Below are positions 3,001-29,500 of a stretch of DNA of 46,978 bases, piece after piece. The position numbers and the translations under genes were made by a program. Location: the IMG/VR virus record IMGVR_UViG_3300044858_005787, positions 1 through 46,978 of that record, one strand, 5' to 3'. The DNA is from a virus. Every line of letters begins with the position of its first letter. The first letter of the stretch is position 1. Under the pieces are notes generated by a model. It was not told the origin of the DNA and ran no database searches. It saw only the letters and a program-made list of their open reading frames with translations.

Positions 3001-4559
3001 GAACCAAGGGCGGGTGTTCAAAAGCATTCAATCTTGCTCAAGGGCCTATACCTTCACCAACCATAACACCAAGTAATACTGTAACACCAACAGTTACCCC
3101 AACACACCCTATTTCTCAAAATGAGATTTTGTTGTTTTTTGAAAGAGTTATCCCGTCAGAGAGTACTTACGTTTCTCCTAATGGTATTGGTATAGGTAAT
3201 ACAGTTTATTCAGTTGCAGAACAATTATTTTCTAATTGTTCCATTAATCAAGGTAGCGCTCAGTATTTTTTTGGTTCGACTGTCTATCTTTCAGACCAAT
3301 TAATGGGTTTAAAATATTATTTACTTGACCAAAATATTAAAAATGTTTTGAAAACTGATTACACCAACAATTTAGATGGGGGGTATGTTTCTTGGTTAGC
3401 ATATGGACCACACGTAATGAATAAAATGTTCTTTACTGAACGCAAAAAAACCTCATACTGTTGGCAGTGGTCACAAGCGGCATATCCTGGACAATGCAAA
3501 TTAAATCCTATGTATTTAAATGGGAATTATCAAGGACTCACATTACCGTCTGCGGTATCACCTATTGTTGAATGGGAAAACCAACCAACAAATTTTTTGT
3601 TTGACGGAACTAATTTATATGTTATTGTGACTCAAAAATATTATGATAACAATTTAACTTTTTCAAGTTTCAGACGAGGAAGATTTTTAATTAATATTAC
3701 AATATTTCCTATAGACATTGTCGGACCTACCCTCTCTAATAAAGTTCAACCACCGGGTTATCTTAATCAGGGGTATAGTGATAAGATATTAAACACAACA
3801 CAAATATGGAATTCTAATAATACAAATGAGGGTTGGTTTGTCGAGCAAGACACTAGAATGGATAATATTATGATGAACTATGGAAATTGGGACGACGGTT
3901 CTTATTACTTTTACACTATGAAAATACCGGCAAATCGATATCCTATAACTGATGAAATACCATCCCAATACTTGAGTTTATCCAATTGTGATGTAAAAAT
4001 TGAATCATGTATTAGATACAATTATTTTGCTAAATTTGGAGTTTATCGACAACCATTCAGCGCGGGATGTGGTAGCCAAGAAACACTTTTATTTACAATA
4101 GAACAAAATGTTGTAAGTTCATTACCTTTTGACAATCCTTTCATATATGAAATAATACAATCATTTAAAACTACAACAAACAAAATAATTTTCTTAGTTA
4201 GTATAATGTCAGGAATACCAACAACTACAACTGAAGATGTTAGAATAGAAAGAGGCATGAGACTTATACAATTTGACCTTAGTGGTAATTTGGAATATTT
4301 GTTACCTATCGAATGTCCATTCCAAGTATTTTTTTATAATAATAACATTTATGGAAGATATGCTCCGTCTTCAGTTAGCTCTTCTTATAATTCTATAGAA
4401 ATCTATATATTAAATTATTCAGTTATAAATGGATGGTCGTGGATATTAGATATCAACGACACTACAAATACAACTCAAAGTGGGTGGAACCAACAAGCAA
4501 ATTTTACAAAGCAGGCTAACAACACAACAGACCTTTGTCAAATTTGTGGATGTTGTTAA
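1..4559 (+). CDS. Giant Cys-rich adhesin / tail-fibre-like protein (5' partial)
   Basis: The frame is open from the window edge (first full codon at base 3), so the gene begins upstream; the GTG at 36 is only the first start-like codon inside the window. The visible N-terminus has delta-60-type beta-propeller repeats (AIAVQPNGKILVGG at about residues 31-44, and a second IYIGGEF copy). Next come several Cys-rich modules (CCSTW, CQCEG, NCCSGEY, NCCCPP) separated by Pro/Thr linkers of the PTPTPT type near residues 224-245, 308-348, 429-455, 665-677 and 1007-1024. Two large C-terminal domains, about 680-1005 and 1030-1490, share a SGNLE ... Y ... N(L/I)Y ... W.W pattern and look like a duplication. 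The protein ends in a Cys cluster. This layout suits a surface-exposed virion fibre that binds a receptor. No enzyme motif is visible. The virion role is inferred from architecture and phage context. Confidence 0.75.
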   Translation, partial: FRSTNSRYQGSVVNNIIRISADTSLDTTFTGAALSSGGSIRAIAVQPNGKILVGGFFSTYSGQPYNNLVRLNSGGTIDTTFQIGSGPNGIVNTIKVSGTTIYIGGEFTTYDGNLSTGVASIKNDGFQDGQFNNKYTFENYLGYTNFPLNGIVNDIHIESNQDVLKIVLGGVFGGYSGNTSQSVVRLKTPTENNSGASTGCYTILDYIPQCTDCINSGTTLSSGPFVDCTVCDLIPTPTPTPTLTPTPTLTPTPTITENCCSTWNLPPKTGVLTAIYQAVLCDNSVDNILVQNEAKLVCAKNVTMLSGGQTPYIQDYCICPTPTPTKTPTKTQTPTNTQTPTFTPTQTQTPTNTQTNTPTQTIPSESVVVFRQCQCEGNGVYVVTGLILIPNPTDRYIFRNGSCYTFESFSSSTVWDEVITSWNLISNNANACQSAFCCASPTPTITPTQTTTPTFTQSPSFTPTVTPTLVYQKTFRGQNCCSGEYQILTLTNLTQQQYNLLTDEIVVYLNPPIDNCYQLTEVPNQPADLVADVGVIYGRNECLQCKVNSEPNNCCCPPVITYVNIVYSQILLTSIWEVGFEIPDCGTDCCDVRIQYSVVGSTGPWITVTDFNSNSCQSPYSVNNFNSSLPTTTPNVWFRMSIFCCEPDQPQGQTSCTNCVREEVFGTPYQYVAISPIPTQTPTPTPTSGIQNIIDCELYGYIYTDSLDDSLPPSYDQAKVDGFSIPNFIVVQSNLTYESSVQYNLITNNHVYKVASGNVEISTYSWGSNLVFNPQTIYPQSDIYLNSYNYTGNLNNVTFCRQVRIAQIPNQKFWAISTKSNGFVVVTVRMQAANDAVFSFYEYNDSFSCNGPTLTLSSNFICQISLAGLPTITPGWMVNWTNQVIKLDNNKYLFTIPYNIGSAFSSRIAQIDSSGNLEFTTSSFYPCPNLFVYQGNLYSIGKEQYQGLNGNYNWQNSTCNDNKQISLYKAVWNGLDWDWDYQTCINISSPAQIGDLAFARTKGGCSKAFNLAQGPIPSPTITPSNTVTPTVTPTHPISQNEILLFFERVIPSESTYVSPNGIGIGNTVYSVAEQLFSNCSINQGSAQYFFGSTVYLSDQLMGLKYYLLDQNIKNVLKTDYTNNLDGGYVSWLAYGPHVMNKMFFTERKKTSYCWQWSQAAYPGQCKLNPMYLNGNYQGLTLPSAVSPIVEWENQPTNFLFDGTNLYVIVTQKYYDNNLTFSSFRRGRFLINITIFPIDIVGPTLSNKVQPPGYLNQGYSDKILNTTQIWNSNNTNEGWFVEQDTRMDNIMMNYGNWDDGSYYFYTMKIPANRYPITDEIPSQYLSLSNCDVKIESCIRYNYFAKFGVYRQPFSAGCGSQETLLFTIEQNVVSSLPFDNPFIYEIIQSFKTTTNKIIFLVSIMSGIPTTTTEDVRIERGMRLIQFDLSGNLEYLLPIECPFQVFFYNNNIYGRYAPSSVSSSYNSIEIYILNYSVINGWSWILDINDTTNTTQSGWNQQANFTKQANNTTDLCQICGCC
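704..768 (+). repeat. Pro/Thr linker repeat with an 18-bp tandem unit
   Basis: Two exact 18-bp copies (714-731 and 732-749) and flanking partial copies encode alternating Thr-Pro. They form the first inter-domain linker of the adhesin. In-frame repeats like this can change length by slippage without disrupting the gene. Confidence 0.8.
959..1090 (+). repeat. Long Pro/Thr/Gln linker repeat in the adhesin gene
   Basis: A degenerate hexamer-style repeat (ACNCCAAC / ACTCAAAC variants) encodes about 44 residues made almost only of Thr, Pro, Gln, Asn and Lys between two Cys-rich modules. It is the longest of at least five such linkers in this gene, and similar sequence recurs in the virion-type gene at 13729-14598. 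Confidence 0.8.
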
Positions 4560-4565
4560 TGTTTC

Positions 4566-4572
4566 TATTTAT
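4566..4572 (+). promoter_or_regulatory. TATTTAT promoter-like motif before the glycan cassette
   Basis: TATTTAT lies in the 52-bp gap between the adhesin stop and the first glycosyltransferase, 39 nt before its ATG. The same sense-oriented motif precedes about a dozen other unit starts here. It could drive the whole co-oriented cassette, because no further copy was noticed in the short junctions between the cassette genes. Promoter function is inferred. Confidence 0.45.
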
Positions 4573-4611
4573 ATTGAGTTATTATTTCATATTTTTTTAT
4601 CAAAAAATCAT

Positions 4612-5862
4612 ATGAAAATTTTTATACAAATAGCATCTTACAGAGACCCAGAGTTAGAAAAAACAATTAAATCAGCAATTGAAAACGCAAAAAAACCAAA
4701 GAATTTAGTTTTTGGTATTGCTCGTCAATATCACCCTGATGATAAGTTTGACACCTTAGAAGAGTACAGAAAGGATAAGAGATTTAGAATATTGGATATT
4801 CCATATTTAGAATCAAACGGAGCGTGTTGGGCAAGAAATCAAATCCAACAATTATATAAAGGAGAAGAATATACATTACAAATTGATTCCCATATGAGGT
4901 TTGCACCAAATTGGGATGATGAAATGATTAAGATGGTTAAATGGCTCCAGAAGAAAGGGTATAAAAAACCACTTCTTACAGGTTATGTTTCATCATTCAA
5001 TCCTGAAAATGACCCCCAAGAAAGAATTCCTGAACCTTGGAGAATGGTATTTGATAGATTTATTCCCGAAGGTGCAGTTTTCTTTTTACCTGAAACAATC
5101 CCTGGTTGGCAAGACCTTACAGAACCTGTAACGGCAAGATTTTATTCGGCGCACTACGGTTTTACATTAGGTCAGTTTTCACAAGAAGTACAACACGACC
5201 CCGATTATTATTTCCACGGAGAGGAAATTTCAATTGCTGCAAGAGCATACACACATGGATATGACTTATTTCATCCCCATAAAGTATTAATTTGGCACGA
5301 ATATACAAGAAAAGGAAGAACAAAGCAGTGGGATGACGATAAAGATTGGGTTTCAAAAAACAACACTTGTCATCTAAAAAATAGAAAATTATTTTCTATG
5401 GATGGTGAAACATATAATCCTGATGAATTTGGAATTTATGGTTTTGGAACGGAAAGAACGTTAAGAGACTACGAAAAATATTCAGGTTTGTTATTTGAAA
5501 AAAGAGCGATTCAACAAGAAACTATTGATAAAAAATATCCACCAAACACATATAATTTCGAAAACGAGGAAGATTGGAAAAATAGTTTCGCAACAATTTT
5601 TAAACATTGTATTGATATTGGATACGCACAAGTTCCTGAAACGGATTATGAGTTTTGGGTAGTTGCTTTCCACGATGAAAAAGATGAAACAATTTTTAGA
5701 AAAGATGCTGACCCATCAGAAATACAAAGAATGATGAATGACCCTGATGGTTATTGTAAAGTATGGAGAGAGTTTCAAACATCTCACAAACCAAAGTATT
5801 GGGTGGTATGGCCATACTCAACATCTAAGGGATGGTGTGAGAGAATTACAGGAAACCTTTAA
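4612..5862 (+). CDS. GlcNAc-type glycosyltransferase (PF11397-like)
   Basis: A 416-residue protein that opens with FIQIASYRDPELEKTI, a pattern typical of the GlcNAc glycosyltransferase family (Pfam Glyco_transf_GlcNAc), in which Skp1-type enzymes transfer GlcNAc to hydroxyl groups. A DSH metal-binding triad in QIDSHMRFAPNWD (about residues 88-100) matches the family's DxD-like site. The ATG at 4612 is preferred over the in-frame start at 4480, because 4480 lies inside the adhesin gene and the family homology begins exactly at MKIFIQ. First gene of a seven-gene run; its stop overlaps the next start as TAATG. It is cytosolic by appearance, with no signal or membrane segment. Acceptor unknown. 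Confidence 0.8.
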   Translation: MKIFIQIASYRDPELEKTIKSAIENAKKPKNLVFGIARQYHPDDKFDTLEEYRKDKRFRILDIPYLESNGACWARNQIQQLYKGEEYTLQIDSHMRFAPNWDDEMIKMVKWLQKKGYKKPLLTGYVSSFNPENDPQERIPEPWRMVFDRFIPEGAVFFLPETIPGWQDLTEPVTARFYSAHYGFTLGQFSQEVQHDPDYYFHGEEISIAARAYTHGYDLFHPHKVLIWHEYTRKGRTKQWDDDKDWVSKNNTCHLKNRKLFSMDGETYNPDEFGIYGFGTERTLRDYEKYSGLLFEKRAIQQETIDKKYPPNTYNFENEEDWKNSFATIFKHCIDIGYAQVPETDYEFWVVAFHDEKDETIFRKDADPSEIQRMMNDPDGYCKVWREFQTSHKPKYWVVWPYSTSKGWCERITGNL

Positions 5863-6743
5863 TGAAAAAAATAATTTTTAGTTATCTACATTATATGGGG
5901 TGGGGTGACTCCCTAATAAGTTTATTTGACATAATTAATTGTGCCGAATATATTAAAACAAATCATAGTGATATTGAAATAACTTTAGTAGTTAATGATT
6001 GCTCGTCAAAAAATATAAGTGACATTTTTCCTCAAGTATTTGACATTAATTTTTTCAATTCTTTTTTTGATAAATTTATAATACAAGAAAAACAATTCCA
6101 TCAATTTACAACAAATAATAAGTGTGAGTTAGATAATATTAGTTATAATAGAGTGTATTCAGGTAGAAATTACGATATGACACCAAATGTTCCTGGAATA
6201 TTTGATGTTTTCGTAAACGATGACTTCAATGAAGAATTCAAAACTTTAGACATCCCATTTACAAAATTTACATTTAACGACGACGGGTCATCAATAATTA
6301 AAGATTTCCCAATTTTTAATAAAAATGTATTGGATATTGTTGATGAATATATTAATAAAGAATTGGTAAATGGATTTAAGTCAATACATTATAGAATATC
6401 GGACACACCATCACCCAATAACTTTGAAAAGTTACAGGAAATTAAAAAAATACTTAAAGATAAATTATCTCAAGAGGATACTCATTTTCTATTAACTAAT
6501 CATGGTATACCTAAGAAAGAATTGATGTCTGTAATACCAAATCATAAAGATGAAATGATTAATGGTTATAATATGAGTAACAGAACTGTCATAAGTGACC
6601 CTGTAATATCTATGGTTGAATTATTAATAATTAGTAGAGGTGACTACATTTATACTTATGGAGACTATCCTTGGATAAGTTATTTTACTTTTTATGCTAG
6701 AAACGTAAAAAGAGTAAAACATAAATTTATTGAAGGATTATAA
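5862..6743 (+). CDS. Putative GT-B-like glycosyltransferase
   Basis: 293 residues, start overlapping the previous stop (TAATG). The N-terminus has a GWGDSL turn after a hydrophobic beta strand (about residues 13-18), as seen in heptosyltransferase-like GT-B folds. The C-terminal third reads LLTNHG ... VISDPVISMVELLIISRG ... YPWISYFTFYA, resembling the sugar-nucleotide-binding half of O-fucosyltransferase/NodZ-like enzymes (an acidic residue before a helix, then a Ser/Ala-rich end). I do not recognise a specific family. The assignment rests on these weak similarities and on its place between clear glycosyltransferases, so a non-enzymatic role is possible. Confidence 0.45.
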   Translation: MKKIIFSYLHYMGWGDSLISLFDIINCAEYIKTNHSDIEITLVVNDCSSKNISDIFPQVFDINFFNSFFDKFIIQEKQFHQFTTNNKCELDNISYNRVYSGRNYDMTPNVPGIFDVFVNDDFNEEFKTLDIPFTKFTFNDDGSSIIKDFPIFNKNVLDIVDEYINKELVNGFKSIHYRISDTPSPNNFEKLQEIKKILKDKLSQEDTHFLLTNHGIPKKELMSVIPNHKDEMINGYNMSNRTVISDPVISMVELLIISRGDYIYTYGDYPWISYFTFYARNVKRVKHKFIEGL

Positions 6744-6746
6744 AAT

Positions 6747-7412
6747 ATGAAAATATTATATGTTATATTATCCTGTGATAAATATGTTAATTCTAGATGT
6801 ATTTCCAGTGAAGAAACATGGGTAAAAAACATTAATAGTGAATCTGATTATGTGATATTATCTGCTAATCCAATTAGAGATAAAGTTATTGGATATATGA
6901 CTGCTGATGACTATTGGTCACTACCAATAAAGATGTTCAATTTGTTTACTAAATTTGACTTCAAAGAATTTGAATGGGTTTTAATATTGGATGACGACGC
7001 ATTTTGTTTTCCAAACAGAATTGAAGATTATATTAATAGTAATAAATTTAATCACAATGAAAAAATTTGTATCGGTAACAGAAACTGTGAATTTATGGAG
7101 ATGGGAGATGTTATTTTTTGTGGTGGAAGCGGAACATTATTGTCAATTGGAACCGTAAACGCTCTGAAAGAGTCCTTATTAAAAGATGAAAACCATATCA
7201 AGTACCGATGTGGAGATTGCTCTTTATTTGATTGGTTAAAAAAAACAGATTCGATTTTAATAAACGCCAACCCAAATGGAAGTCCAAATGGACTTATGAT
7301 TCCTGAAAATTTTAAAACACAAAACAATGAAGATGTGATGGGTAAAGCATTAACATTTCATTATTGTAATGATGATGATAAACACTTTTTATTTAAAAAA
7401 TACTTTATATGA
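6747..7412 (+). CDS. Fringe/galactosyltransferase-like glycosyltransferase
   Basis: 221 residues. It starts with a Rossmann-like strand (MKILYVILSCDKY) and a WVKNI segment, then carries ILDDDAFCFPNRIEDYI at about residues 81-97. This hydrophobic-DDD pattern and its context match the GT31/Fringe-type GT-A fold, where DDD binds the metal and nucleotide sugar. A Gly-rich FCGGSGTLLS segment near residue 128 corresponds to the family's GGAG-like acceptor loop, and CGDCSLFDWL near 155 to the downstream catalytic acidic region. At 221 residues it is a minimal catalytic domain. It overlaps the next gene by 4 nt. Sugar and acceptor unknown. Confidence 0.65.
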   Translation: MKILYVILSCDKYVNSRCISSEETWVKNINSESDYVILSANPIRDKVIGYMTADDYWSLPIKMFNLFTKFDFKEFEWVLILDDDAFCFPNRIEDYINSNKFNHNEKICIGNRNCEFMEMGDVIFCGGSGTLLSIGTVNALKESLLKDENHIKYRCGDCSLFDWLKKTDSILINANPNGSPNGLMIPENFKTQNNEDVMGKALTFHYCNDDDKHFLFKKYFI

Positions 7413-8272
7413 AAACAAAATACGAAGTAACGTATCAAAAACCTCATGGTAGTAGATGGTCAGTTCATAATGTATTTGATAGGTACTATGAAATATTCTC
7501 AAAAAAATATAATACAGAATATATTACACCGGTCAATACAAGTGAACCTGCAGGACCACACTCACCACATTTAATGACGATAAGAAATATCGATACAAGA
7601 AAATATGTTGTAGTTTCTTATTGGGATAGGGCTAATGAATTATTGATACCTGCGTTGGGTTGGGATACAGAAAATTTAGTTACTATAATAACCTCTGCTG
7701 GCGTTCACACACCTAACGAAATATTTACTCCTTTTAGTTATGGATGTTATACCACCGAGTTTGACGATTTGCATCTGAACAGAAAAAAAGTAAAAGACAA
7801 ACAAAATAGTAATTTGGAATTTAGGGGTTACTTATATGCCGAAAGACATAGTTTGGCGGAAACAGGTAAACTAAACATTTTATCTCAGAAAATTCATCCT
7901 AACACAGAATATTATGAAAGTTTGAATAATAATAAAATATGTTTGTCTTTAAATGGCGCAGGTGAAATCTGCAACAGGGACATAGAAATTTTATCTTCAG
8001 GTTCGGTTTTATTTAGACCTGAATTAAAACAAAAATTTCATAACGAGTTGATACCTGATTATCACTATTTGACATTCGATACTCACAGTGACCCAAACAC
8101 ACAAGCAGATATTATTTTAGATAAATTTGAAAGCATTAAAAATAATAAACGACTACTTAATAAAATTTCTAATAATGGTTATGAGTGGTTCAAAAAAAAT
8201 GGTACAGTAAGTTCAAATGTAAATTTACTGAAAAAAATAATAAACAAAGAATTATTGGAAAAATTAAAATGA
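7409..8272 (+). CDS. Putative glycosyltransferase (CgeB/GT90-like C-terminus)
   Basis: 287 residues, overlapping the preceding and following genes by 4 nt each (ATGA type). The C-terminal half contains KICLSLNGAGEICNRDIEIL, then SGSVLFRPEL, a Tyr-His-Tyr segment, and a closing helix with GYEWFKKNG. This order (Gly-rich loop, Arg, Glu, small-residue turn, strand, then a terminal helix) resembles the donor-binding half of CgeB or CAP10/GT90 glycosyltransferases. The N-terminal half has no motif I recognise. Function is inferred from this pattern and from the cassette; the family is uncertain. Confidence 0.45.
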   Translation: MKTKYEVTYQKPHGSRWSVHNVFDRYYEIFSKKYNTEYITPVNTSEPAGPHSPHLMTIRNIDTRKYVVVSYWDRANELLIPALGWDTENLVTIITSAGVHTPNEIFTPFSYGCYTTEFDDLHLNRKKVKDKQNSNLEFRGYLYAERHSLAETGKLNILSQKIHPNTEYYESLNNNKICLSLNGAGEICNRDIEILSSGSVLFRPELKQKFHNELIPDYHYLTFDTHSDPNTQADIILDKFESIKNNKRLLNKISNNGYEWFKKNGTVSSNVNLLKKIINKELLEKLK

Positions 8273-9078
8273 AAAAAATTTATTTCACAACACTCAGTTT
8301 AGGTGAAAATTATACAAGAGATTATACTTGTAATTTAATTGATGATGTCTTAACAAAAACAAATCATTATTTCGCGGTCACCACAGATTGTCCAAAAATC
8401 ATAACTGAAAGATTTGGTAAAAATAAAAGAATATTAATTGACAAGATTGATAGGTCAAAATTAAAAGTTAGACTCCCAATAGGACCACCAAAGTTAGCAA
8501 GTGATTTTAACTTCAACATGAGATACCTTTGTCTTAGACAACTCTTGGAATTGGAAGATTCAATTGTTATTTGGACAGATTGCGACAATTCTTTAGAATG
8601 GTGGGATGAAAAAGAGGTAAGAGATTTCTTTGATTCTATGGTTTCACAAGGTAAAAATTTTTTGGGACCTAGAAACGAATATAGATGGGGCGGATTCTTA
8701 AATGATTATTTTACTAAAAACAATAAAGAACATGGTATTTTTTGGCATAAAATATACAATTACGATTTGGAGGATAATCCATATAATGGATGGGATGACG
8801 CACCACTACCCGCCGAATATCTTTTAGTGTTTTTGGAAACAGGTGAAAAGATGAAAAAGTTTTACGAACAATTTAAATGGTTTCATGATTATTTAGCGAA
8901 TAAAGATTGGACAAACGGAACTTGGGCTGAAGGTTTTGAATTAGGAGTATCTTCTTACGTTGCGGGATATACACCATATGATATTGGTTGGCACCATCCT
9001 ATTTTAGCAAGAGCAATAAAGGCTAACGGTCATAAATCACCAGAAGGTAAACCTAAACACGGAACAGAATTCCAATAA
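8269..9078 (+). CDS. Putative GT-A glycosyltransferase
   Basis: 269 residues. The ATG at 8269 overlaps the upstream stop (ATGA) and is preferred to the in-frame start at 8185, which lies inside the upstream gene. The N-terminus MKKIYFTTLSLGENY is a Rossmann-like strand. IVIWTDCDNSLEWWD near residues 99-113 gives a hydrophobic strand ending in a D-x-D pair, as in metal-dependent GT-A enzymes. A later WAEGFELG ... WHHP segment may be the acceptor and metal-coordinating C-terminal part. No membrane segment. It belongs to the same transcriptional run as its neighbours. Confidence 0.55.
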   Translation: MKKIYFTTLSLGENYTRDYTCNLIDDVLTKTNHYFAVTTDCPKIITERFGKNKRILIDKIDRSKLKVRLPIGPPKLASDFNFNMRYLCLRQLLELEDSIVIWTDCDNSLEWWDEKEVRDFFDSMVSQGKNFLGPRNEYRWGGFLNDYFTKNNKEHGIFWHKIYNYDLEDNPYNGWDDAPLPAEYLLVFLETGEKMKKFYEQFKWFHDYLANKDWTNGTWAEGFELGVSSYVAGYTPYDIGWHHPILARAIKANGHKSPEGKPKHGTEFQ

Positions 9079-9079
9079 G

Positions 9080-10573
9080 ATGAAAGAAATTTATAAGTTT
9101 TTAGCAAAGTTTAAATTAGATAAAAAGTTTTGGACACACACCAATTTATCAAGTGAAGATTATGGTAATAGGAGTAAACCGGCACCATATATAAAAGCAA
9201 CTGTACAAATTGCAAAAATGTTAGGTCTTAAAACCTTTGTTGAAATAGGTTCAACAAGATATGCGGTTTCTCCTAAATGTGTTGATTATTATAATAAAGA
9301 AAACGAACCATTTAATTCACCACCTTGTTGTACTGACGGGCACTGTGGATTTTTCTTTGCGGATGCTGGATTTGAAGTTAATACAGTGGATATTGATTTG
9401 AATTGTATGACGCAAATAATATGGTCATATAATAACTTAGGAAAAACCTTTCCTGAAAATGTTAAAATGCACATACCAAAAGATGGTATTGAATTCCTCA
9501 GAGAATTTCAAGGAAAGATAGACATTCTTTTTTTAGATGGTTGGGATGTAGGAACTCCTGATTATGCTGAAAAACATTTAGAAGCGTTTTTGGTAGCAGA
9601 AGAAAAACTTTCTGATGTACATTTAATATTAATTGATGATACTGATTTCATTTTACCAAACGCAGGAAAAGATTCTAAATTAACTCCTTATCTGATTGAT
9701 AAAGGGTATATACAACTATTCAACGGTAGACAAACATTATATATTAACACTGATAAAGTTGAGATAAAAAACACAGAATTAGATTTGCAGTATAGTGATT
9801 ATATCTTAGGTGAGAATCCTAAAGTAATAATTTCACTATCAACAACACCTAATAGATTGTCCGAAACAAGAGAAGGTTGGGGAGTAAAACCATGTATTGA
9901 AAACTTACTTTCATTTTCCTATCCTAATTATGAAGTTCATTTTAATGTACCTCAATTTTTCCACAAAACAGGATTACAGTACGAATTACCGGAATGGTTA
10001 CTTGAAAAAATCCAACAAAATGAAAAATTAAAAGTATTTCGTTTCAACGATTTTGGTTCAGTAACTAAAATTGTACCAACACTACAAAGAACAACTGACC
10101 CCAAAACTGTAATAATAACTGTTGATGATGATATTATTTATCAAGATGGGTTTATAGAATATCATTTAGAGAAAATCAAAAAACATCCAAAATCAGTATT
10201 AGGATTTGCAGGGATTGGTGCGAGAAATGGCAGTTGTCATTTATGTACAACAGTAAAAGAGGATACAGAGGTTAGAGTCATTGAAGGATATAAAACGGTG
10301 TCATATTTAAGAAATTTCTTTAAGGACGATTTTTATACAGAATTTGTTGGTAAATCTTGGAGTGATGATATTGTAATTTCCGCTTATTTAGGTAAACATA
10401 AAATTCCTAGAATTGTAATTAACTACGACAAAGACGAAGATTTCAGAGCAAGAGTAGAATCCTTTCCAATTTTGAAAACAATACCAAATGAAACATCGGG
10501 TTGTAATTTATATAGGTCCGAACAAGTTTCCGATAATTATGATTATTTTGATAAACAAGGTTATTTCCGATAA
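9080..10573 (+). CDS. Methyltransferase-glycosyltransferase fusion
   Basis: 497 residues in two parts. Residues about 50-235 look like a class I SAM-dependent methyltransferase: FVEIGSTRYAV (53-63) as the SAM loop, VDIDLN as the acidic motif II, and DILFLDGWD / LILIDDTDF strands. Residues about 245-497 form a GT-A domain: VIISLSTTPNRL, then IITVDDDIIYQDGFIEYH near 343-360, whose DDD triad should bind metal and nucleotide sugar. A Cys/His-rich stretch (CCTDGHC) near 89-95 could bind metal. The start lies one base after the upstream stop. The fusion suggests coupled sugar transfer and methylation, but the acceptor is unknown. Confidence 0.65.
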   Translation: MKEIYKFLAKFKLDKKFWTHTNLSSEDYGNRSKPAPYIKATVQIAKMLGLKTFVEIGSTRYAVSPKCVDYYNKENEPFNSPPCCTDGHCGFFFADAGFEVNTVDIDLNCMTQIIWSYNNLGKTFPENVKMHIPKDGIEFLREFQGKIDILFLDGWDVGTPDYAEKHLEAFLVAEEKLSDVHLILIDDTDFILPNAGKDSKLTPYLIDKGYIQLFNGRQTLYINTDKVEIKNTELDLQYSDYILGENPKVIISLSTTPNRLSETREGWGVKPCIENLLSFSYPNYEVHFNVPQFFHKTGLQYELPEWLLEKIQQNEKLKVFRFNDFGSVTKIVPTLQRTTDPKTVIITVDDDIIYQDGFIEYHLEKIKKHPKSVLGFAGIGARNGSCHLCTTVKEDTEVRVIEGYKTVSYLRNFFKDDFYTEFVGKSWSDDIVISAYLGKHKIPRIVINYDKDEDFRARVESFPILKTIPNETSGCNLYRSEQVSDNYDYFDKQGYFR

Positions 10574-10581
10574 AATTTAAT

Positions 10582-13026
10582 ATGCAAGATAGAGAAAATT
10601 TATTAAACAAAATCGTTCATTTTCATAATGAAATGATTGAAACCAACATTATAAATAAAGAACAGATTTCTACATTAGTCGATAAATTATGTGAGGTTAT
10701 TGAAAACAACATTGATGGTGATGTTGTTGAACTTGGTTGTTATGTTGGAGAATCATCCAAATACTTGACTAAAACTATTTTAGAAACACAATCAAATAAG
10801 AAACTTTTTGTTTATGACTCATTTGAAGGGTTACCTGATTTATCAGATTGGGAAATAAATTCAGGTTGGCAACCAAGAACTTTAAATACCACTGAAGAAA
10901 TACTTATTAAAAATTTTAAACAAAACAATTTACCAATACCCATAATACACAAAGATTGGTTTAAAAATATTCCTGATTATAAAATACCTGAAAAAATTTG
11001 TTTTGCGTTTTTAGATGGAGATTTCTATGATTCTATCTATGACAGTCTAACAAAAGTTTATGATAATGTTACTACTGGTGGTTACATATTTTTTCACGAT
11101 TATAAAAGACATGATTTACCCGGAGTTGAGGCTGCGGTAAAACAATTTTTGAATGAAAAAAATATTAATCAACCAATACATGAAATAACTAAAGAATTGG
11201 CTTATATCATAAAAGGTGAGAAGGGTGAATTAATAGACCAATTACCACAATTGGATAATATAATAGAAAAGAAAAACAATTCAAAGACGACAATAGTTAC
11301 AGGTTTGTGGGATATCGGAAGAAAAGATTTATCTTCAGATTGGGCAAGAGGTTTTGAACACTATATTCAGAAATTAAACCAACTTTTAGATACCCCAAAC
11401 AATTTAATTATTTTCGGAGAACAATCACTAAAAGAAATAGTTTTCAAAAAAAGGACAAGCGAAAATACTCAATTTATTGAAAGAAAAGTTGATTGGTTTA
11501 AACAAAATGAATTTTACGAAAAAATACAAAACCTGAGAAATAACCCGTTGTGGTCAAATCAAGTTGGTTGGTTAAGTGATTCAACACAGGCAAAACTCGA
11601 GATGTACAACCCTCTTGTAATGTCAAAAATGTTTTTATTAAATGATGCGGCAATTTTAGATAAATTTGATTCTGAGTATCTTTTTTGGATTGATGCTGGT
11701 ATAACCAACACGGTACATAGTGGATATTTTACACATGATATGGTTTTTGATAAAGTTCATAAACTAACAAGCAAGTTTTTATTTGTTTGTTTTCCTTATG
11801 AAACAAATACAGAAATTCATGGATTTAATTATGAAGCAATAAACAAATATTCAAATAACAAAGTCAATAGAGTTGCTAGGGGTGGTTTTTTTGGTGGAAA
11901 TAAAAATAGTATTGGTGAATTGAATTCTATATATTATCACCTATTGAAAAACACTTTGGAAAGTGGGTACATGGGTACAGAAGAATCTGTTTTTACTATA
12001 ATGACTTATCTTTATCCTGATTTGATTGACATATATAATATTGACGGTAATGGTCTAATGGGTGGGTTCTTTGAACACATTAAAAATAATGATGAGTTTA
12101 CACCCGCAGAAAATGATGTTATTAGGTTAAAACCACAATTGTCACCAATCAATCAACAATATAATTCTGATTATATTATTGATAATGTTTTGAATATTGA
12201 ACATGGTTTCACAAATAACGAAGAAACTGCACTTTATGTAATTGGATTTAACTCACCAAATCAATTCAAAACACTAATTCATTCCATGATGTTTTATGAT
12301 AAAGGTTTCATTGATAAAACAAAAAAATATTTGTTAAATAACTCAACTGATTTATCAACAACCGAACAGTATGACGCCCTTTGTAAGTCATATGGTTTTG
12401 AACATGTAAAGAAAGATAATTTGGGTATTACAGGAGGAAGACAATGGATTGCCGACCATTTTAATGAAAGTGGACATAAGTACTGTATGTTCTTTGAGGA
12501 TGATATGTTTTTCCACTCAGATAGAGTTGGATATTGCAGAAATGGTTTTAACAGATACGTTCCAAATTTATACGACAAAGTTTTGTCAATTATGAAAAAA
12601 GAAAACTTTGATTTTTTGAAGTTTAATTTTTCAGAGTTCTTTGGTGATAATGGAACACAGTGGTCTTGGTATAATGTACCCCAAGTTGTTAGAGTTGCAG
12701 AGTTTCCCGAGAAAACAAAACTTCCAACACAAGGATTGGACCCCGACGCTCCAAGAACAAACTTCAAAAATATTAGAAGTGTTGATGGATTGTCATATAT
12801 TACTGGAGACATCTATTACTCTAATTGGCCACAGATTATGTCAAAAGAAGGAAATAAAAAGTGTTTCATTGATACGAGATTCCAATTCCCATATGAACAA
12901 ACAATTATGTCCTTCATTTTTCAAGAAACAAGAAAAGGAAATATCAAACCGGGTCTTTTACTTTTGACACCAACGGAACACAATAGGTTTGAACACTATG
13001 ACGGTTCATTGAGGAAAGAGTGTTAA
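10582..13026 (+). CDS. Three-domain TylF-like methyltransferase / HtrL-YibB / glycosyltransferase
   Basis: 814 residues. (1) About 30-210: macrocin O-methyltransferase (TylF)-like, with VVELGCYVGESSKYL (48-62), VYDSFEGLPDL, AFLDGDFYDS and FFHDY. (2) About 235-520: HtrL/YibB family, recognised from TTIVTGLWDIGR, FIERKVDWF and FWIDAGITNTV (near 369); this family of unknown exact function sits in LPS/polysaccharide loci in bacteria. (3) About 547-814: a GT-A-like domain with YVIGFNSPNQF and MFFEDDMFFH near 635-644 as the acidic metal site. Last gene of the glycan cassette. Such three-part chains are unusual, and a domain-boundary search would help. The domain 1 and 2 calls are firmer than domain 3. 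Confidence 0.7.
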   Translation: MQDRENLLNKIVHFHNEMIETNIINKEQISTLVDKLCEVIENNIDGDVVELGCYVGESSKYLTKTILETQSNKKLFVYDSFEGLPDLSDWEINSGWQPRTLNTTEEILIKNFKQNNLPIPIIHKDWFKNIPDYKIPEKICFAFLDGDFYDSIYDSLTKVYDNVTTGGYIFFHDYKRHDLPGVEAAVKQFLNEKNINQPIHEITKELAYIIKGEKGELIDQLPQLDNIIEKKNNSKTTIVTGLWDIGRKDLSSDWARGFEHYIQKLNQLLDTPNNLIIFGEQSLKEIVFKKRTSENTQFIERKVDWFKQNEFYEKIQNLRNNPLWSNQVGWLSDSTQAKLEMYNPLVMSKMFLLNDAAILDKFDSEYLFWIDAGITNTVHSGYFTHDMVFDKVHKLTSKFLFVCFPYETNTEIHGFNYEAINKYSNNKVNRVARGGFFGGNKNSIGELNSIYYHLLKNTLESGYMGTEESVFTIMTYLYPDLIDIYNIDGNGLMGGFFEHIKNNDEFTPAENDVIRLKPQLSPINQQYNSDYIIDNVLNIEHGFTNNEETALYVIGFNSPNQFKTLIHSMMFYDKGFIDKTKKYLLNNSTDLSTTEQYDALCKSYGFEHVKKDNLGITGGRQWIADHFNESGHKYCMFFEDDMFFHSDRVGYCRNGFNRYVPNLYDKVLSIMKKENFDFLKFNFSEFFGDNGTQWSWYNVPQVVRVAEFPEKTKLPTQGLDPDAPRTNFKNIRSVDGLSYITGDIYYSNWPQIMSKEGNKKCFIDTRFQFPYEQTIMSFIFQETRKGNIKPGLLLLTPTEHNRFEHYDGSLRKEC

Positions 13027-13059
13027 ATTTTTTTAGATAGATTTTGTAGATTCAAAAAA

Positions 13060-13066
13060 TATTTAT
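13060..13066 (+). promoter_or_regulatory. TATTTAT promoter-like motif before the candidate RNA
   Basis: The motif lies after the stop of the three-domain gene and about 16 nt before the first base of a GC-richer foldable segment that ends in a terminator. No ORF begins between this motif and that terminator, so if it is a promoter its product is non-coding. Confidence 0.45.
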
Positions 13067-13074
13067 ATCTTTGT

Positions 13075-13200
13075 TGAAACAAAAGGTAGATACTACCGAC
13101 CGAAAGTATCCGTATTGTGTCTGGCGAAACCCGACACGGGTTTAAATACCTTTCCTACTAGGAAAAAACTAAAAAAATGGGGACTTAGGTCCCCATTTTT
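13075..13200 (+). ncRNA. Candidate stand-alone structured RNA, unknown class
   Basis: A GC-richer island in an AT-rich gap, bounded by a promoter-like motif and an intrinsic terminator, with no ORF. Fold A is a closed multibranch: P1 13082-13088 with 13147-13153 (7 bp), P2 13089-13094 with 13105-13110 (6 bp), and P3 13117-13121 with 13133-13137 plus two inner G-C pairs around a CGAAA loop. A short pseudoknot between the P2 loop GACC (13098-13101) and GGTT (13139-13142) is possible. Fold B is a chain of three perfect hairpins with 3-nt loops: 13085-13089/13093-13097, 13127-13133/13137-13143 and 13151-13156/13160-13165. A and B exclude each other. I recognise no known riboswitch, ribozyme or tRNA consensus. 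The 5' end is an estimate. Confidence 0.5.
13173..13200 (+). terminator. Intrinsic terminator
   Basis: Perfect GGGGAC / GTCCCC stem (13179-13184 with 13189-13194) around a TTAG loop, extended by A/T pairs on both sides and ending in a run of five T. It closes the candidate RNA and separates it from the next gene, whose own promoter-like motif follows at 13212. Confidence 0.85.
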
Positions 13201-13211
13201 GATGTCATAGA

Positions 13212-13218
13212 TATTTAT
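13212..13218 (+). promoter_or_regulatory. TATTTAT motif, 4 nt before a start codon
   Basis: The motif stands only 4 nt before the ATG at 13223 and 12 nt after the upstream terminator. If it acts as a -10-like element, the transcript would begin at or inside the start codon and be leaderless. Confidence 0.4.
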
Positions 13219-13222
13219 CTTT

Positions 13223-13729
13223 ATGAAATTATTGTTTTTCGTCAAAGACCTTATAATTGAGAACAGAAAACCACGTAAAGTTAGAGACTCTATTGAGTTT
13301 AATGGAAAAAAAATATTATTATTTTCGTCATACCACCAATGGTTCGATAGACACGGAGATGAAGATTATGAAACAATTAAAACCATTTACTTTGACAAAT
13401 TAACCTTAATGGATAATTACAGAGTCGGAGTTCCTGATAGGATAATAACAAAATTGTTCAGGAAAAACATTTCAAAAATTGAAAATTCATTCGAACAAGA
13501 AAAAAATGACAGAATTATTTTTGTTAAAAAAAGGACCGATAACGATGATGAAGTTGATTTTGATTTCATTGAATTTATCTTACAAAAAAAGGAGAATGGT
13601 TATGAGATAATTACTTCAGCGTACTCTGATGATGGAAGATTTTTGGTATTGGGATTTCCAGTTAGAACTACAAAAGTAATGATTGAAAACAAAATCATCA
13701 GAAAATATAAAATAGTATACTTGAGTTAA
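13223..13729 (+). CDS. Unknown small protein
   Basis: 168 residues, first gene after the terminator, followed by a TAATG overlap with the next gene. Predicted mixed alpha/beta with many charged residues and no signal or membrane segment. The C-terminal part (DFDFIEFILQ ... YEIITSAYS ... FLVLGFPVRTT) loosely recalls RelE/EndoU-like phage nuclease folds of the PBECR type, in which a strand pair ends in a Thr-Ala-Tyr turn. That resemblance is too weak for a call. Its operon partners are virion-type proteins, so a structural or injected role is equally possible. Confidence 0.6.
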   Translation: MKLLFFVKDLIIENRKPRKVRDSIEFNGKKILLFSSYHQWFDRHGDEDYETIKTIYFDKLTLMDNYRVGVPDRIITKLFRKNISKIENSFEQEKNDRIIFVKKRTDNDDEVDFDFIEFILQKKENGYEIITSAYSDDGRFLVLGFPVRTTKVMIENKIIRKYKIVYLS

Positions 13730-20147: not shown

Positions 20148-21293
20148 CTAACAAACTACCTTTTCAACCTCTTTTTTAGCAACATATAATTGTTTTTTCT
20201 CTAAAATATCGGAATTTTTATTAAAAATGTATGTGTCGATTGTTTTATTTTGATAATCCGGTTTTATACGGAATCTAATAGATAATCTCAATTCATTACA
20301 TCCTCTTTGACCAACATTTGACCAATAGAAATCTATAAATTTAATGGGTACAATTGTATAATTTTCATAAACAATACCCTCCATATTATTTTTAATACTA
20401 TCAAGATATTCTTGACCCTCACCTTTTACCCACTCATAAAGACCACGAATTACTGAGTTATAAATTTCTAAATGTGAACCCTTGTATTGTTTATTTTTTG
20501 ATTGTTTAAAAATTGAAAAAAATTCTGACAAGTAACTATCTATATTAACGTCCATCTTCTTGACCTCAAAGTTAGAACCAGATGGGAATACCTCAGTTTT
20601 TTTTCCATTATCCACAACATAAAGAGGGGTTTTAGACACTATGTCTGATTTTATAACAACCTTATCACTTAAAGATGACTTAACACAATTTTTTATCTTT
20701 AAGAGTAATTTTTGAAAATCATCAGTAGAGACACTTTTGAATCTTTGTATTTTTTCCAAAAAATTATTATCAAGGTCTTCACCGCATTTATATTGTAAAG
20801 AAAGAGCAGTCCTACTTAGGTCAAAATAATCACCCTCGAATTCTTTCTCATATTTTGAATATTCTTTTTCTCTAACATTTTTTAATATATCTTCTAAATC
20901 ATCAGGAACTATGGACATATCTCTTAATTTTAATAATTGTTTTTTGGTCACATCATCATTAAATTCTTCATCATTGATGAAATCAGCAACCACCTTCAAG
21001 TCATTTATGGTTTTGTTTCTATCTATCAATGATAGTTCCAATATTTTTGGTAAAAGACCTGAATTCTTCCTATTAAAAAATTTGTATAGAGTTTCAATAC
21101 TTTTGTTCAAATCGGTTATTAATTTTTGGTCGGTTAGCGATGACCTCAAAGCCAAAAGTTTAATTGCTGAGTTGTTTTTTTTACGAGTTTTTTTATATAA
21201 AACATTTAAATAATCGTCGTCAAACATTTCATCTTGGTCTAAATATTTCTCTGTTAATCTAACTAATTGACTTTCAGATATTAAAATTTTCAT
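20148..21293 (-). CDS. Unknown protein with ISESQL N-terminus
   Basis: 381 residues. The start overlaps the stop of the superoxide dismutase-nuclease gene (ATGA), so the two are coupled. The N-terminus MKILISESQLVRLTEKYL resembles the peptide encoded at 29741-29842. Residues about 25-200 are predicted mainly helical and charged; about 200-381 are mixed alpha/beta, with a WVKGEGQEYLDSI helix and a RLSIRFRIK strand. No catalytic motif is recognised. Adjacency suggests a role with the nuclease fusion or the neck protein; neither is shown. Confidence 0.6.
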   Translation of the reverse strand: MKILISESQLVRLTEKYLDQDEMFDDDYLNVLYKKTRKKNNSAIKLLALRSSLTDQKLITDLNKSIETLYKFFNRKNSGLLPKILELSLIDRNKTINDLKVVADFINDEEFNDDVTKKQLLKLRDMSIVPDDLEDILKNVREKEYSKYEKEFEGDYFDLSRTALSLQYKCGEDLDNNFLEKIQRFKSVSTDDFQKLLLKIKNCVKSSLSDKVVIKSDIVSKTPLYVVDNGKKTEVFPSGSNFEVKKMDVNIDSYLSEFFSIFKQSKNKQYKGSHLEIYNSVIRGLYEWVKGEGQEYLDSIKNNMEGIVYENYTIVPIKFIDFYWSNVGQRGCNELRLSIRFRIKPDYQNKTIDTYIFNKNSDILEKKQLYVAKKEVEKVVC

Positions 21294-22831
21294 TTGATAA
21301 TCTCAATTAAAGATGTTGATGGTATAGTGTAATTTCCCCCCACAATCTTAGTGTTGCGATTATCGAATACAAATATACCAAATTTTTTATTATAAAATAC
21401 AATCCAATCTGTATTATATTCTTTTACGTTGGCAGTATTATATACTGTATAAGTATCTTTATCTAAATTATAACTACCAAAAGGTTTGATTTGGGCTGTT
21501 TTAGTTTCACCATCAACAATTATTTCCGCATCAATACCTTCTTTAGCGTCTTTTGAACTACCCAATTTACCCACAAGTGATACATTATCATCTCCGTATT
21601 TTTCTTTCAATTTAACAACCGTAAACTCCTCAGTCATTTTACCAAGTTGTTCGGTCTTACTTAACGTTGATATAAGATTTTCAAAAGTTTTAGATTTAGT
21701 TGAAAAGATTCTGAATTTGAATTGTTCGATTATTTGACACATTCTTTGAACTTCATTTAATTGTTCTCGGGGTGACACACCGACAAATTTTAATGGGGTT
21801 TCGTTTTTAACCCTCAATAGTTTATTAATGTCTTTTACTAAAATACAAAACCCTCTGATGTTTGTGTTTAAATAATTCAACACCGACCTTCCTTCACCTT
21901 CTAAATTATAAACACCGGCCATTTCCCCGTCTTTATACTCATTTTCCTCGTAGTATCTATCTGAAAAAACTTCTTTCAAAACAGATTGAATTGTTTTTTT
22001 ATAAATCTGTTTAACCATTGGATTCAGATTAAATATAAAACGATACGCCTCGTTTTCTTCTCTTGAACAACTTTCACTAACACCCTCCGATAATACAGAT
22101 TTTACATGTGCCGACTCATTAAGTTTATTCTTTAACTTCATGTTATACATTTTACCGACAAACTTCCAATTTATTGCTTTGAAAAAGTTTTTGATGTAAT
22201 CGTCCCTTTTGTTCTTATATCTCAAGTAATAAGCGTGTTCCCACAAATCAAGACCCAAAAGTGGATAACCCCCATTTCTTACAATATTCATAAGTGGATT
22301 ATCTTGGTTTGGAGTTGTCATAATCTTTAAAGAACCCGATTTTGTTAACACAAGCCATATCCATCCTGAACCAAAGTTTTTCTTGGCCTTTTCAGTGAAT
22401 TCTTGTTTGAATCCCAAAAAGTTATGAAAATCTTTTTTAATTCTTTCGTAAATTGTTCCTGTACATTTCTGTTCAGTTGGAGATAACATTTTCCAAAAAA
22501 GTGCGTGGTTGAACGCTCCACCCGCATTATTTCTTATGGTCTTGTTGTACTTGCTAATTGATTTAATTATTTCCTCTAACTCAACATCACCATAATCTTT
22601 TTTACTTAATGCATCATTTAATTTATCAACATAAGTTTTGTAATGTCCGTTATAGTGGTAAGACATTGTTTCAGGGTCAATGAATTGTTTTAAAGCGGAA
22701 TACGAGTAAGGTAATTTCTCAATTCCTATTTTTTTCATTTCATTTATAAATAATTTTTCATTATCCCTTGTTTCTTCTTCTTTTATTTGACTGGCTATTT
22801 TTTCTACTTTTTCTTGAAGTTTTTTCATCAT
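21290..22831 (-). CDS. Mn/Fe superoxide dismutase fused to a PD-(D/E)XK-like nuclease domain
   Basis: 513 residues. Residues 38-230 are a complete iron/manganese superoxide dismutase with all four metal ligands: H59 (TMSYHY), H109 (GGAFNHALFW), D195 and H199 (DLWEHAYY). The gateway Tyr is Y67, and Q176 in NQDNPLM is the Mn-type glutamine. The enzyme dismutates superoxide to oxygen and peroxide. A helical linker (about 231-395) follows, then a C-terminal domain with EEF near 401, GIDAEIIVDG (D434) and TAQIKP (Q447, K449), the D-x(n)-QxK pattern of PD-(D/E)XK nucleases. There is no secretion signal. First of a coupled minus-strand group, with a TATTTAT motif 20 nt upstream. The nuclease call is less certain than the dismutase call. 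Confidence 0.8.
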   Translation of the reverse strand: MMKKLQEKVEKIASQIKEEETRDNEKLFINEMKKIGIEKLPYSYSALKQFIDPETMSYHYNGHYKTYVDKLNDALSKKDYGDVELEEIIKSISKYNKTIRNNAGGAFNHALFWKMLSPTEQKCTGTIYERIKKDFHNFLGFKQEFTEKAKKNFGSGWIWLVLTKSGSLKIMTTPNQDNPLMNIVRNGGYPLLGLDLWEHAYYLRYKNKRDDYIKNFFKAINWKFVGKMYNMKLKNKLNESAHVKSVLSEGVSESCSREENEAYRFIFNLNPMVKQIYKKTIQSVLKEVFSDRYYEENEYKDGEMAGVYNLEGEGRSVLNYLNTNIRGFCILVKDINKLLRVKNETPLKFVGVSPREQLNEVQRMCQIIEQFKFRIFSTKSKTFENLISTLSKTEQLGKMTEEFTVVKLKEKYGDDNVSLVGKLGSSKDAKEGIDAEIIVDGETKTAQIKPFGSYNLDKDTYTVYNTANVKEYNTDWIVFYNKKFGIFVFDNRNTKIVGGNYTIPSTSLIEIIK

Positions 22832-26516: not shown

Positions 26517-29500
26517 ATGGCAAACACAAAAGTTTTCGTTTCTCCAGGGGTTTACACATCTGAGGTTGATTTGTCTTTTGTCGCTTCTAGTGTAGGTGTT
26601 ACAACATTGGGTATTGTGGGTGAGACCCTTAAAGGTCCTGCTTTTGAACCAATTTTTATATCTAACTACGACGAATTTCAAACAATTTTCGGAGGTACTT
26701 CTCCTGAAAAATTTGTGAACACACAAATTCCTAAATATGAGGCGGCATATATTGCTAAAGCATATTTACAACAATCAAATCAATTATTCGTTTCAAGAAT
26801 TCTTGGTTTATCAGGTTATGATGCGGGCCCATCATGGTCTATTAGAACAATTGCAAATGTTGACCCAAGTACTATCGCTGTTACAAATAGCGACTTGTCA
26901 ACAGGTGTTAATTTTACGGCCGATACTACTACAAATCCTTTTACAGTTACATTCAATCAAAGTCAAATACCTTCTCAAATGTTACCATTTTTGGATGTGA
27001 CTTATACAAATAATGATGGAAGTACCTCTTCTATTAGAGAGGAATTAAATTCATTAGTAATAACATTGGTTAATAATGCAACAGGTGGAACAGAAGAAAA
27101 TAATACAGAGGTATATTATTTTGGTAGTATACCAAGTGCGACATACAACACTTTATTAGGTGGTTCGGCGCCAGATGCTAACGTTCCTCTTACAGCAGAA
27201 ACTAATGTTTACAGTGTTGATAATTTATCACTTTCGGCAAATACCCTTAGTAATTCAAGTAATGATGCTTGGTATTATGCATTATTTGACAACTCTAATG
27301 GAACTTATACCGGTTACGCTTTCTATGCTTATCAACAAAACACGGTAGGTATAATTACAGGGCCTCCGGCTCTTGGAAGAATAAATATTGGTTGGGTCGA
27401 GTTCAGTGGTACTTCATTCAGTGATTACGAAAACCTTGTTGTTGCAACTTTAAGGTCAAGAGGTGCTAACCTATACGTTAATAGTTCAGGTCCTGTATAC
27501 GAAGTAAGTGCAACTACCGGTGTTACTATGGTTTGTACAGGAAGTTATTCTGGCGTAACGTCAAATCCGTTCTCAACTTTCAAAATTACAGGTACAACTA
27601 ATTCAGGTACAAACTTTGATTTCGAGACATCCATGAGTATTTCAGCAACTAACACTCTATCAAAAGTATTTGGAAATACAAACTTTGATAAACCAAAAGC
27701 TGAAGTTCCATTGTTTGTTGAAGAAGAATACACAAACCTTTTATATTGGGCTTACAACAAAGGATACATTAGAGGATTGAACTGTGATTTGATTGAGTTG
27801 AATTCGGCAAGAAGTACATCGAACATTTCAATCGGTAACTACTTGGAAAAATACCAAACTCCACAAACACCTTGGATTGTATCAGAATTAAGAGGTAACA
27901 CAGTTTACAGATTATTCAAATTTATAACAATCTCTGATGGAGATTCTGCAAATAGAGAGGTTAAGATATCAATGGCTAATATGTCTTACGTTGATAATAC
28001 GTTTGATATCTTAGTTAGAGATTTTTATGACACAGACCAAAATCCTTTTGTTATTGAAAAATATACAAAATGTTCAATGAATCCAAGCTTGAATAATTAC
28101 ATCGGTAAAAAAATAGGTTCATCTGATGGTGAATATTCATTAGTGTCTAAATTCATCATGGTTGAACTTAATGCGGACGCTCCAATTGACGCGATACCAT
28201 GTGGTTTTGAAGGATATGTAACAAGAGAGTACAGTGGTGCTACATTTACGAAATCACCATTCTTAATCTACAAAACTAAATATGACATCCCTGGTGAAAC
28301 TATTTTCGAACCACCTTTCAACACACCTGTAGGTGCGGGTTATTCATTAACTACAAATGGAGACAATTTGAGAAGAACATTCTTAGGTGTTAGTGATAAA
28401 ATAGGTATTGATATTGATTTCTTGGATTATAAAGGAGGTCAAAATGATGGTGATTTATGTGATACTGAAGATTTCCCTGATTGGAACTATAAAACAAGAG
28501 GTTTCCACATGGATAAAGAGGCAAGTGCTATTACAATCTCTAATGATTATGTAACAAGCGGTACTCCTGAATTCTATGTAGGTGCTGCAACATTCCAATC
28601 AGAACCAGAAAACCAAGACAATGCTTACTACAGAATATTTGCACGTAAATTTACTGTAGTTCCAGCAGGTGGTTTTGATGGATGGGATATTTATCGTGAG
28701 TCAAGAACAAACACTGACAGATTTATCTTAGGTGGTTCAGGTTATAAAAAAGGTGCGTGTTTTAATTCTAGATATCCATCGGCAACAGGCCAAGGAATGT
28801 TCAAAGAAATAACAATTGACCAAAACTCAGTAGATTATGCTAACACGGATTACTACGCATATTTGTTGGGAATGAAATCTATGGCTAATCCTGAGGCGGT
28901 TAATATTAACGTATTTGTTACACCAGGTATTGATTATGTAAATAACCTTTTATTAGTTAACGCAGCGATTGAAGTTGCTGAAATTGACAGAGCGGATTCT
29001 ATCTACATTACAACTACACCTGATTACAGTATGTTCGTACCATCGGCTTCAAATTCTGAAGATGCTATTTACCCACAAACTGCGGTAGATAATCTAATCG
29101 ATTCAGCAATTGATTCAAATTACACGGCAACATATTATCCTTGGGTATTAACAAGAGATACGGTTAACAACACACAACTTTATATTCCACCAACTGCTGA
29201 GGTGACAAGAAACTTGGCACTTACTGATAATATTGCATTCCCTTGGTTCGCAACCGCAGGTTACACAAGAGGTCTTGTAAATTCAGTTAAGGCGAGAAGA
29301 AAACTATCTCAAGAAGATAGAGATGTGTTATATGAAGGAAGAATTAATCCAATTGCAACATTCTCTGATGTTGGAACAGTAATTTGGGGTAATAAAACTT
29401 TACAAATCGCTCAATCTGCTCTTGATAGAATTAACGTAAGAAGATTGTTACTACAAGCTCGTAAGTTAATTTCAGCAGTTTCTGTGAGGTTACTATTCGA

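Follow-up and report, generated by a model that had tools for sequence, protein, structure and literature searches.

A candidate family of small, pseudoknotted, stand-alone RNAs in phages of putative Bacteroidota-type hosts

The locus

What is encoded in an intergenic stretch of phage DNA that folds strongly and carries a terminator of its own? The question is posed by a stretch of 46,978 nucleotides (the window), a 47-kb IMG/VR record from a contractile-tailed phage (tail sheath at 26517). The interval concerned, 13027-13222, lies between the stop of a gene for 814 amino acids (10582-13026; TylF-type methyltransferase and HtrL_YibB domains), located 5' of the RNA, and the start of a gene for 168 amino acids (13223-13729, plus strand). 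To our knowledge, few non-coding RNAs of Bacteroidota phages have been described. Comparison with homologues shows 13044-13200 to be a putative gene by which phages of Bacteroidota-type hosts encode a small, stand-alone and highly structured RNA, and the RNA almost certainly represents a real family.

The original prediction had described a foldable stretch without an open reading frame, and this description holds. On the plus strand of 13027-13222 there is no frame of at least 40 codons, and the minus strand offers a single 50-codon frame with a TTG start. The minimum free energy of 13065-13205 is -43.6 kcal/mol, compared to -27.5 +/- 3.6 kcal/mol for shuffled sequences (z -4.5), and none of 200 shuffles was as low. 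The features expected of a structured non-coding RNA are found together: compensatory changes in homologues, a promoter, a terminator and the absence of a conserved reading frame. The nearest isolated relatives of the window phage, as judged by its DNA polymerase, are Salinibacter and cyanobacterial phages (about 22-26% identity). The Bacteroidota-type host is suggested by the promoter type and by one flavobacterial genome bin.

Elsewhere in the window, a series of glycosyltransferase- and methyltransferase-like genes is found at 4480-13026, of which the TylF methyltransferase-HtrL_YibB fusion is one. The minus strand at 21290-22831 encodes a protein that has iron/manganese superoxide dismutase domains at its N terminus and its C terminus (Pfam E-values of 1e-22 and 2e-37).

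Promoter and terminator

A TATTTAT motif at 13060-13066 (plus strand) had been proposed as the promoter-like element of the RNA. The motif is indeed present, but the better and conserved promoter is TTG-N19-TATCTTTG. It consists of a -33 element (TTG, 13044-13046, plus strand) of the Bacteroidota sigma-A type and a -7 element, TATCTTTG (TAnnTTTG, 13066-13073, plus strand), which fits the flavobacterial -7 consensus and is conserved in homologues. In Flavobacterium, the -7 box recognized by sigma-A is TAnnTTTG at positions -12 to -5 (PMC9723704). On the plus strand of the window no other TTG-N19/20-TAnnTTTG occurs. The same arrangement, with its spacing of 19-20 nt, lies upstream of the RNA in the close relative L131, in the L003-type contigs and in L099. 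From the position of the -7 box, transcription is predicted to start at around 13078, and in the window and these homologues the predicted start falls at, or at most about 7 nt before, the first pseudoknot stem (S1). In L176 the promoter region contains TATATTTG and lacks the TTG, and no clear TAnnTTTG box was found at the RNA of L130 or L191. The TATTTAT motif is missing upstream of the RNA in the L003-type homologues, and is hence not the promoter that the RNA family conserves. Probably it serves the phage as a promoter of its own, since it occurs 19 times on the plus strand of the window, where it precedes several other genes and about half of the copies sit 11-84 nt before a gene start.

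The strong terminator that had been predicted at 13173-13200 (plus strand) is present as AAAAATGGGGACTTAGGTCCCCATTTTT, with a 12-bp stem and a T run. The terminator search listed this hairpin on the minus strand; the plus strand, too, ends in T5. Promoter spacing and terminator together predict a transcript of about 123 nt (13078-13200, plus strand). Terminator-like hairpins also stand 3' of the RNA in L131, the L003-type contigs, L176 and L191, and no strong terminator was found directly after hairpin P4 in L099. The claim of a stand-alone, self-terminated RNA between two genes is thus upheld by its own promoter, its terminator and the compensatory changes described below.

The surroundings of the RNA differ in some homologues. 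In L099 (minus strand, about 13130-13295) it continues past P4 for about 150 nt of further foldable sequence, next to a convergent gene for 140 amino acids. In L176 (minus strand, about 2340-2560) it is flanked by two near-identical terminators, ACCCCATTCTTAATAAGTTTGGGGTTTTTT, and resembles a cassette inserted in a duplicated intergenic unit. L003 (6640-6800) and its relatives have, 3' of the RNA terminator, one more conserved hairpin unit (GGACCGTTATCCGTTAGGGTAACAAT ... GGGGGAATTCGCTACTCCCCCTTTTTTT), which may be another small RNA.

Homologues and distribution

Besides the window, members of the family were found in 20 viral contigs, the longest of 292 kb, and in one bacterial contig; together they form five sequence lineages. 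A profile of the window RNA matched all 12 viral contigs that encode relatives of the 168-amino-acid protein (E-values of 4e-5 to 8e-4), each time in the intergenic region directly downstream of that relative. Further members were recovered by pattern scans of the invariant core. These include L131, which shares the gene layout of the window, L099, L130, the distant L176 and the bacterial L191, a contig from a Flavobacteriia genome bin. Three patterns placed differently yielded no true members beyond the known set in viral contigs. The 59-nt core scores 67-90 bits across members, and the core of the window (13110-13170) scores 67.2 bits (E-value of 4.8e-16). Searches over the full length of 16 homologue records gave a single copy in each.

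The distribution is patchy. Among 50 contigs with related DNA polymerases none carries the RNA, nor does any of the isolated phages and plasmids searched. When genomes of the order (399), phylum (395) and family (240) of the L191 host were sampled, the RNA was found in that host only. There it belongs to a chromosomal island (L288/L289, CANGZT010000001.1) that also contains AbiEii and McrBC-like genes as well as a serine recombinase and a type I specificity fragment. The patchy distribution is the pattern of an accessory, mobile gene. Searches of about 400 genomes also gave weak bacterial matches to the model (E-values of 2e-4 to 0.1), which were rejected: the best ones lie inside genes or lack the motif, and the remainder are as many as chance predicts. 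L290 and the GC-rich pattern matches were likewise judged to be chance.

A conserved H-type pseudoknot

The 5' region of the RNA is predicted to form an H-type pseudoknot. Stem S1 pairs GGTA (13085-13088) with TACC (13094-13097), stem S2 pairs GATACT (13089-13094) with AGTATC (13105-13110), and GACCGAA (13098-13104) is the crossing loop, all on the plus strand. The end of S2 abuts exactly the CGTA at 13111-13114 (plus strand), which is invariant in the alignment and joins the pseudoknot to hairpin P3.

Both stems are maintained while their letters change. In S2, both sides have changed in 6/6 pairs and 42/42 cells are paired, and in S1 both sides have changed in 5/6 pairs with 89% of the cells paired over five lineages; these numbers were obtained after masking the loops with N and positioning the segments manually, and they thus lean towards the proposed stems. 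The S2 strands read GATACT/AGTATC in the window and L131, ATTGGT/ACCAAT in L003, GTTGGT/ACCAAT in L130, ATTGGA/TCCAAT in L099, GCTGGT/ACCAGT in L176 and ACCAGT/ACTGGT in L191. S1 is weaker in the window lineage, where it is 4 bp long, compared to 6 bp elsewhere (TGATTG/CAATCA, TGTTGT/ACAACA, TAGGAA/TTCCTA). A shuffle test on each homologue separately, which is less exposed to the bias of hand placement, gave an equally good pseudoknot in 0.2-1% of the shuffles (0.4% for the window). In the window, T13094 is common to both stems, so that S2 has 5 bp when S1 has 4 bp; as GATAC/GTATC, S2 can form simultaneously with S1.

The 3' module

The most conserved part of the RNA is the 3' module, the pseudoknot being less so. 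Hairpin P3 (13117-13137, plus strand) is formed by GTGTC/GACAC, a bulged T13122, GG/CC and the loop CGAAAC (13125-13130). Most members have GTGTC/GACAC as the outer stem of P3, and L176 and L191 have TCATC/GATGA, with three pairs changed on both sides. While the P3 stem varies, the loop TGGCGNAAYCC is invariant, an invariance that arises partly by selection because some search patterns prescribed the loop and part of P3. One pattern that left TGGCG and the 5' strand of P3 free recovered the same members only. P3 is followed by the conserved linker GGTTTAAATACC (13139-13150, plus strand; family consensus GGTTNAAAWYCC), in which GGTT, AAA and CC are invariant and which may resemble a T-loop (UUNRA). 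Hairpin P4 (TTTCC-TACTA-GGAAA, 13151-13165, plus strand) closes the module. In the family it is ACC/GGT with a 4-nt loop, in L099 AGC/GCT and in the window UCC/GGA, and two of its pairs have changed on both sides.

Together with a tentative P2, 97% of the cells in P3 and P4 are paired. The covariation is 0.275 versus 0.108 in shuffled alignments (0/500 as high), and controls with slid registers were 25-42% paired. P2 (TAGG with the CCTA of the P4 loop) is 90% paired with one pair changed on both sides, and it would be sterically difficult together with P4. The invariant positions (CGTA, CTGGCGNAAYCCG, the AGGTTNAAA linker, CC and the AGG of P4) are mainly loops and linkers.

One conserved fold, and no support for a conserved switch

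The original prediction saw two mutually exclusive folds, a three-way arrangement closed by a 7-bp stem and three hairpins with 3-nt loops. All of these elements are readable in the window sequence. Compensatory changes in homologues, on which that prediction had staked itself, were found in P3, P4, S1 and S2. The switch, on the other hand, finds no support when the homologues are compared. A single pseudoknot has GGTA/TACC and GATACT/AGTATC as its stems, and GGTAG-ATA-CTACC as a rival to GATACT/AGTATC is S1 versus S2, a conflict on paper only. The hairpin TTTCCT-ACT-AGGAAA (TTTCCTACTAGGAAA), assigned to the alternative fold, equals P4 and is part of the conserved fold. The closing stem AAAGGTA/TACCTTT is lost in L131, the closest homologue. 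The third hairpin, AAACCCG-ACA-CGGGTTT (AAACCCGACACGGGTTT), is favourable in the window only, where it reaches -8.2 kcal/mol compared to -7.6 kcal/mol for the competing P3. In the five homologues computed it lies at +0.8 to +1.5 kcal/mol versus -5.3 to -7.4 kcal/mol for P3, and its covariation is no higher than in shuffles. The data point to one conserved pseudoknotted structure and do not support a conserved switch; the window RNA could be bistable at P3.

Relation to known RNAs

That the RNA matches no known class had been part of the original prediction. At the gathering threshold, Rfam 15 gives no match in the window. Permissive searches with the stretches from the window, L003, L176, L099 and L191 returned matches below threshold only, many of them on the terminator hairpin. 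The RNA belongs to no family catalogued in Rfam, and in the literature on structured RNAs of phages and metagenomes, searched by title and abstract, no description of it was found.

Two resemblances to housekeeping RNAs were considered and rejected. A tRNA is suggested by the 7 bp that close a 72-nt unit in the window and by GGTTNAAAWYCC, which resembles a T arm. However, ARAGORN finds neither a tRNA nor a tmRNA, the closing stem is not conserved, and CCA and an anticodon arm are missing. A resemblance of CCGACACAGGT and CTAGGCAAAA to 23S rRNA was compared with that of E. coli: for the better members 4-13 of 200 shuffles were as good, for the window and L176 most were, and L176 and L191 lack the matching letters, which leaves chance.

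Among phage RNAs, GOLLD, ROOL and the candidate motifs of PMC2864571 are likewise intergenic, independently transcribed, covarying and of unassigned function; for the present RNA the transcription is predicted. It is much smaller than GOLLD and ROOL, has another fold and shows no sequence relation to them (the Rfam searches were empty). The abiF RNA motif (RF03085) with AbiF/Abi_2 is also a small, structured, phage-carried RNA with an adjacent protein; it binds the neighboring protein and acts in trans (PMC12373285). In this case, cmscan gives no match to RF03085 and the neighbor is not Abi_2, as it has no Pfam match. Perhaps the RNA works like the ToxI-type or abiF-type RNAs, but it was not filed with them because tandem repeats and a recognizable toxin are missing.

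The neighboring 168-amino-acid protein

The gene at 13223-13729, which has its own TATTTAT motif at 13212, was found only beside the RNA in the contigs examined. Its relatives in 12 viral contigs are 38-45% identical, and the family of 168-172 amino acids (window, L003-L014 and L131) shares invariant YHQWF(D/E)RHGD and SA(F/Y)S(D/E)DG-type motifs. The RNA adjoins the gene in all 12 of these contigs, in L131 and in the window; it lies 5' of the gene in the window and L131 and 3' of it in the L003-type contigs. None of 43 DNA-polymerase-relative contigs searched contains the gene. L099, L130, L176 and L191 carry the RNA alone, and any partner may therefore differ between members. The 140-amino-acid neighbor in L099 was considered as a relative of the 168-amino-acid protein, and the search did not demonstrate kinship. 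Since the gene lies beside the RNA in every contig in which it was found, and four contig types have the RNA without it, dependence seems to run from the gene to the RNA more than the other way round. The protein has no match in Pfam, PHROG, PADLOC or the PDB. Its structure model is of low confidence (pLDDT of 65) and matches no fold; an RNase-like fold is a tentative possibility.

Proposed function and alternatives

The RNA would probably be made by the host RNA polymerase, early or throughout infection, because its promoter resembles a housekeeping promoter of the host, beyond the phage TATTTAT. The rigid fold would then present the invariant loops (CUGGCGNAAYCCG, AGGUUNAAA) to a protein partner. 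A surface recognized by a partner is suggested because loops and linkers are invariant while the stems drift with compensation. By binding that protein the RNA may act in trans, as a decoy or in an antitoxin-like manner, against a host factor, or, where the 168-amino-acid gene is present, it may work in partnership with the product of that gene. This trans-acting, protein-binding reading is favored by the invariant surface, the association with the 168-amino-acid gene and the L191 island, and we give it a probability of about 45%, the decoy or antitoxin-like step being inferred. Equally, the partner of the invariant loop could be a small molecule or a further RNA.

A related explanation casts the RNA as the antitoxin of a protein-RNA pair, in which the 168-amino-acid protein would be the toxin (perhaps an RNase) and phages with the RNA alone would use an orphan antitoxin against a host system. 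As in the type III toxin-antitoxin RNAs (ToxI, CptI, TenpI, AntiQ), a gene for about 170 amino acids follows, in the window and L131, an H-type pseudoknot RNA that has a terminator and a promoter of its own, here of the host type. All homologues of the protein that were found adjoin the RNA, on either side, one RNA copy sits in a chromosomal island of the defence type, and phage-borne mimics of type III antitoxin RNAs are known (PMC3475682). The pseudoknot is shared with the type III RNAs, but the tandem repeats are not: each record has a single core, and there is an extra conserved 3' module, in which conservation is also strongest. Moreover, the L003-type contigs have the gene on the opposite side and four RNA-bearing contig types lack it. 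The protein, whose structure model is weak, is not recognizably ToxN-like, and neither family nor PDB searches link it to endoribonucleases of the ToxN/AbiQ/CptN/TenpN type. We regard an antitoxin role in this strict sense as unlikely. An antisense small RNA whose single-stranded loops pair with host or phage mRNAs would suit the size, promoter and terminator, which are typical of ordinary bacterial small RNAs. The conserved letters, on the contrary, lie in short structured loops that distant members keep in different genomes, and base pairing with mRNAs is rather improbable as the main role.

A riboswitch or attenuator that controls the gene downstream was also considered; its two folds would be the switch, and the terminator would represent the off state. 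A terminator does stand between the RNA and the 168-amino-acid gene in the window and in L131, and the competing 7-bp hairpin is possible in the window. Yet that hairpin is unique to the window and no conserved alternative fold was found, a new promoter-like motif follows the terminator in L176 and in the window (at 13212, as had been predicted), and the RNA lies 3' of the gene in 12 contigs. Because of this position and its own promoter and terminator, it is not the leader of the 168-amino-acid gene, in agreement with the earlier claim that it is no 5' untranslated region, and an aptamer in a leader that shares the gene's promoter was not found; such control is very unlikely. A pseudoknot and invariant loops would also suit an RNA that is catalytic or processed, such as a self-cleaving element, but the ribozyme families of Rfam give no match, and we consider catalysis highly improbable. 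Finally, AT-rich genomes with terminators often fold somewhat by chance. For this RNA such an origin is practically negligible, being refuted by the compensatory changes, with covariation in five lineages and a z of -4.5.

Significance

The trans-acting, protein-binding reading may be taken a step further. A class of phage effector RNAs can be imagined in which the host polymerase makes a pseudoknotted RNA that binds directly to a defence or shut-off protein of the host and thereby inactivates it. Such an RNA would travel among phages and chromosomal defence islands, either by itself or as a module together with a small partner protein. This is offered as a tentative idea, and on balance a doubtful one. 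The consensus from the present comparison makes the RNA family searchable. The exact pseudoknot and the invariant loops have been kept over five lineages despite changing neighbors, which argues for strong selection for a specific molecular partner. Identification of that partner would reveal either a new RNA-based way in which phages manage their hosts or a new protein-RNA pair.
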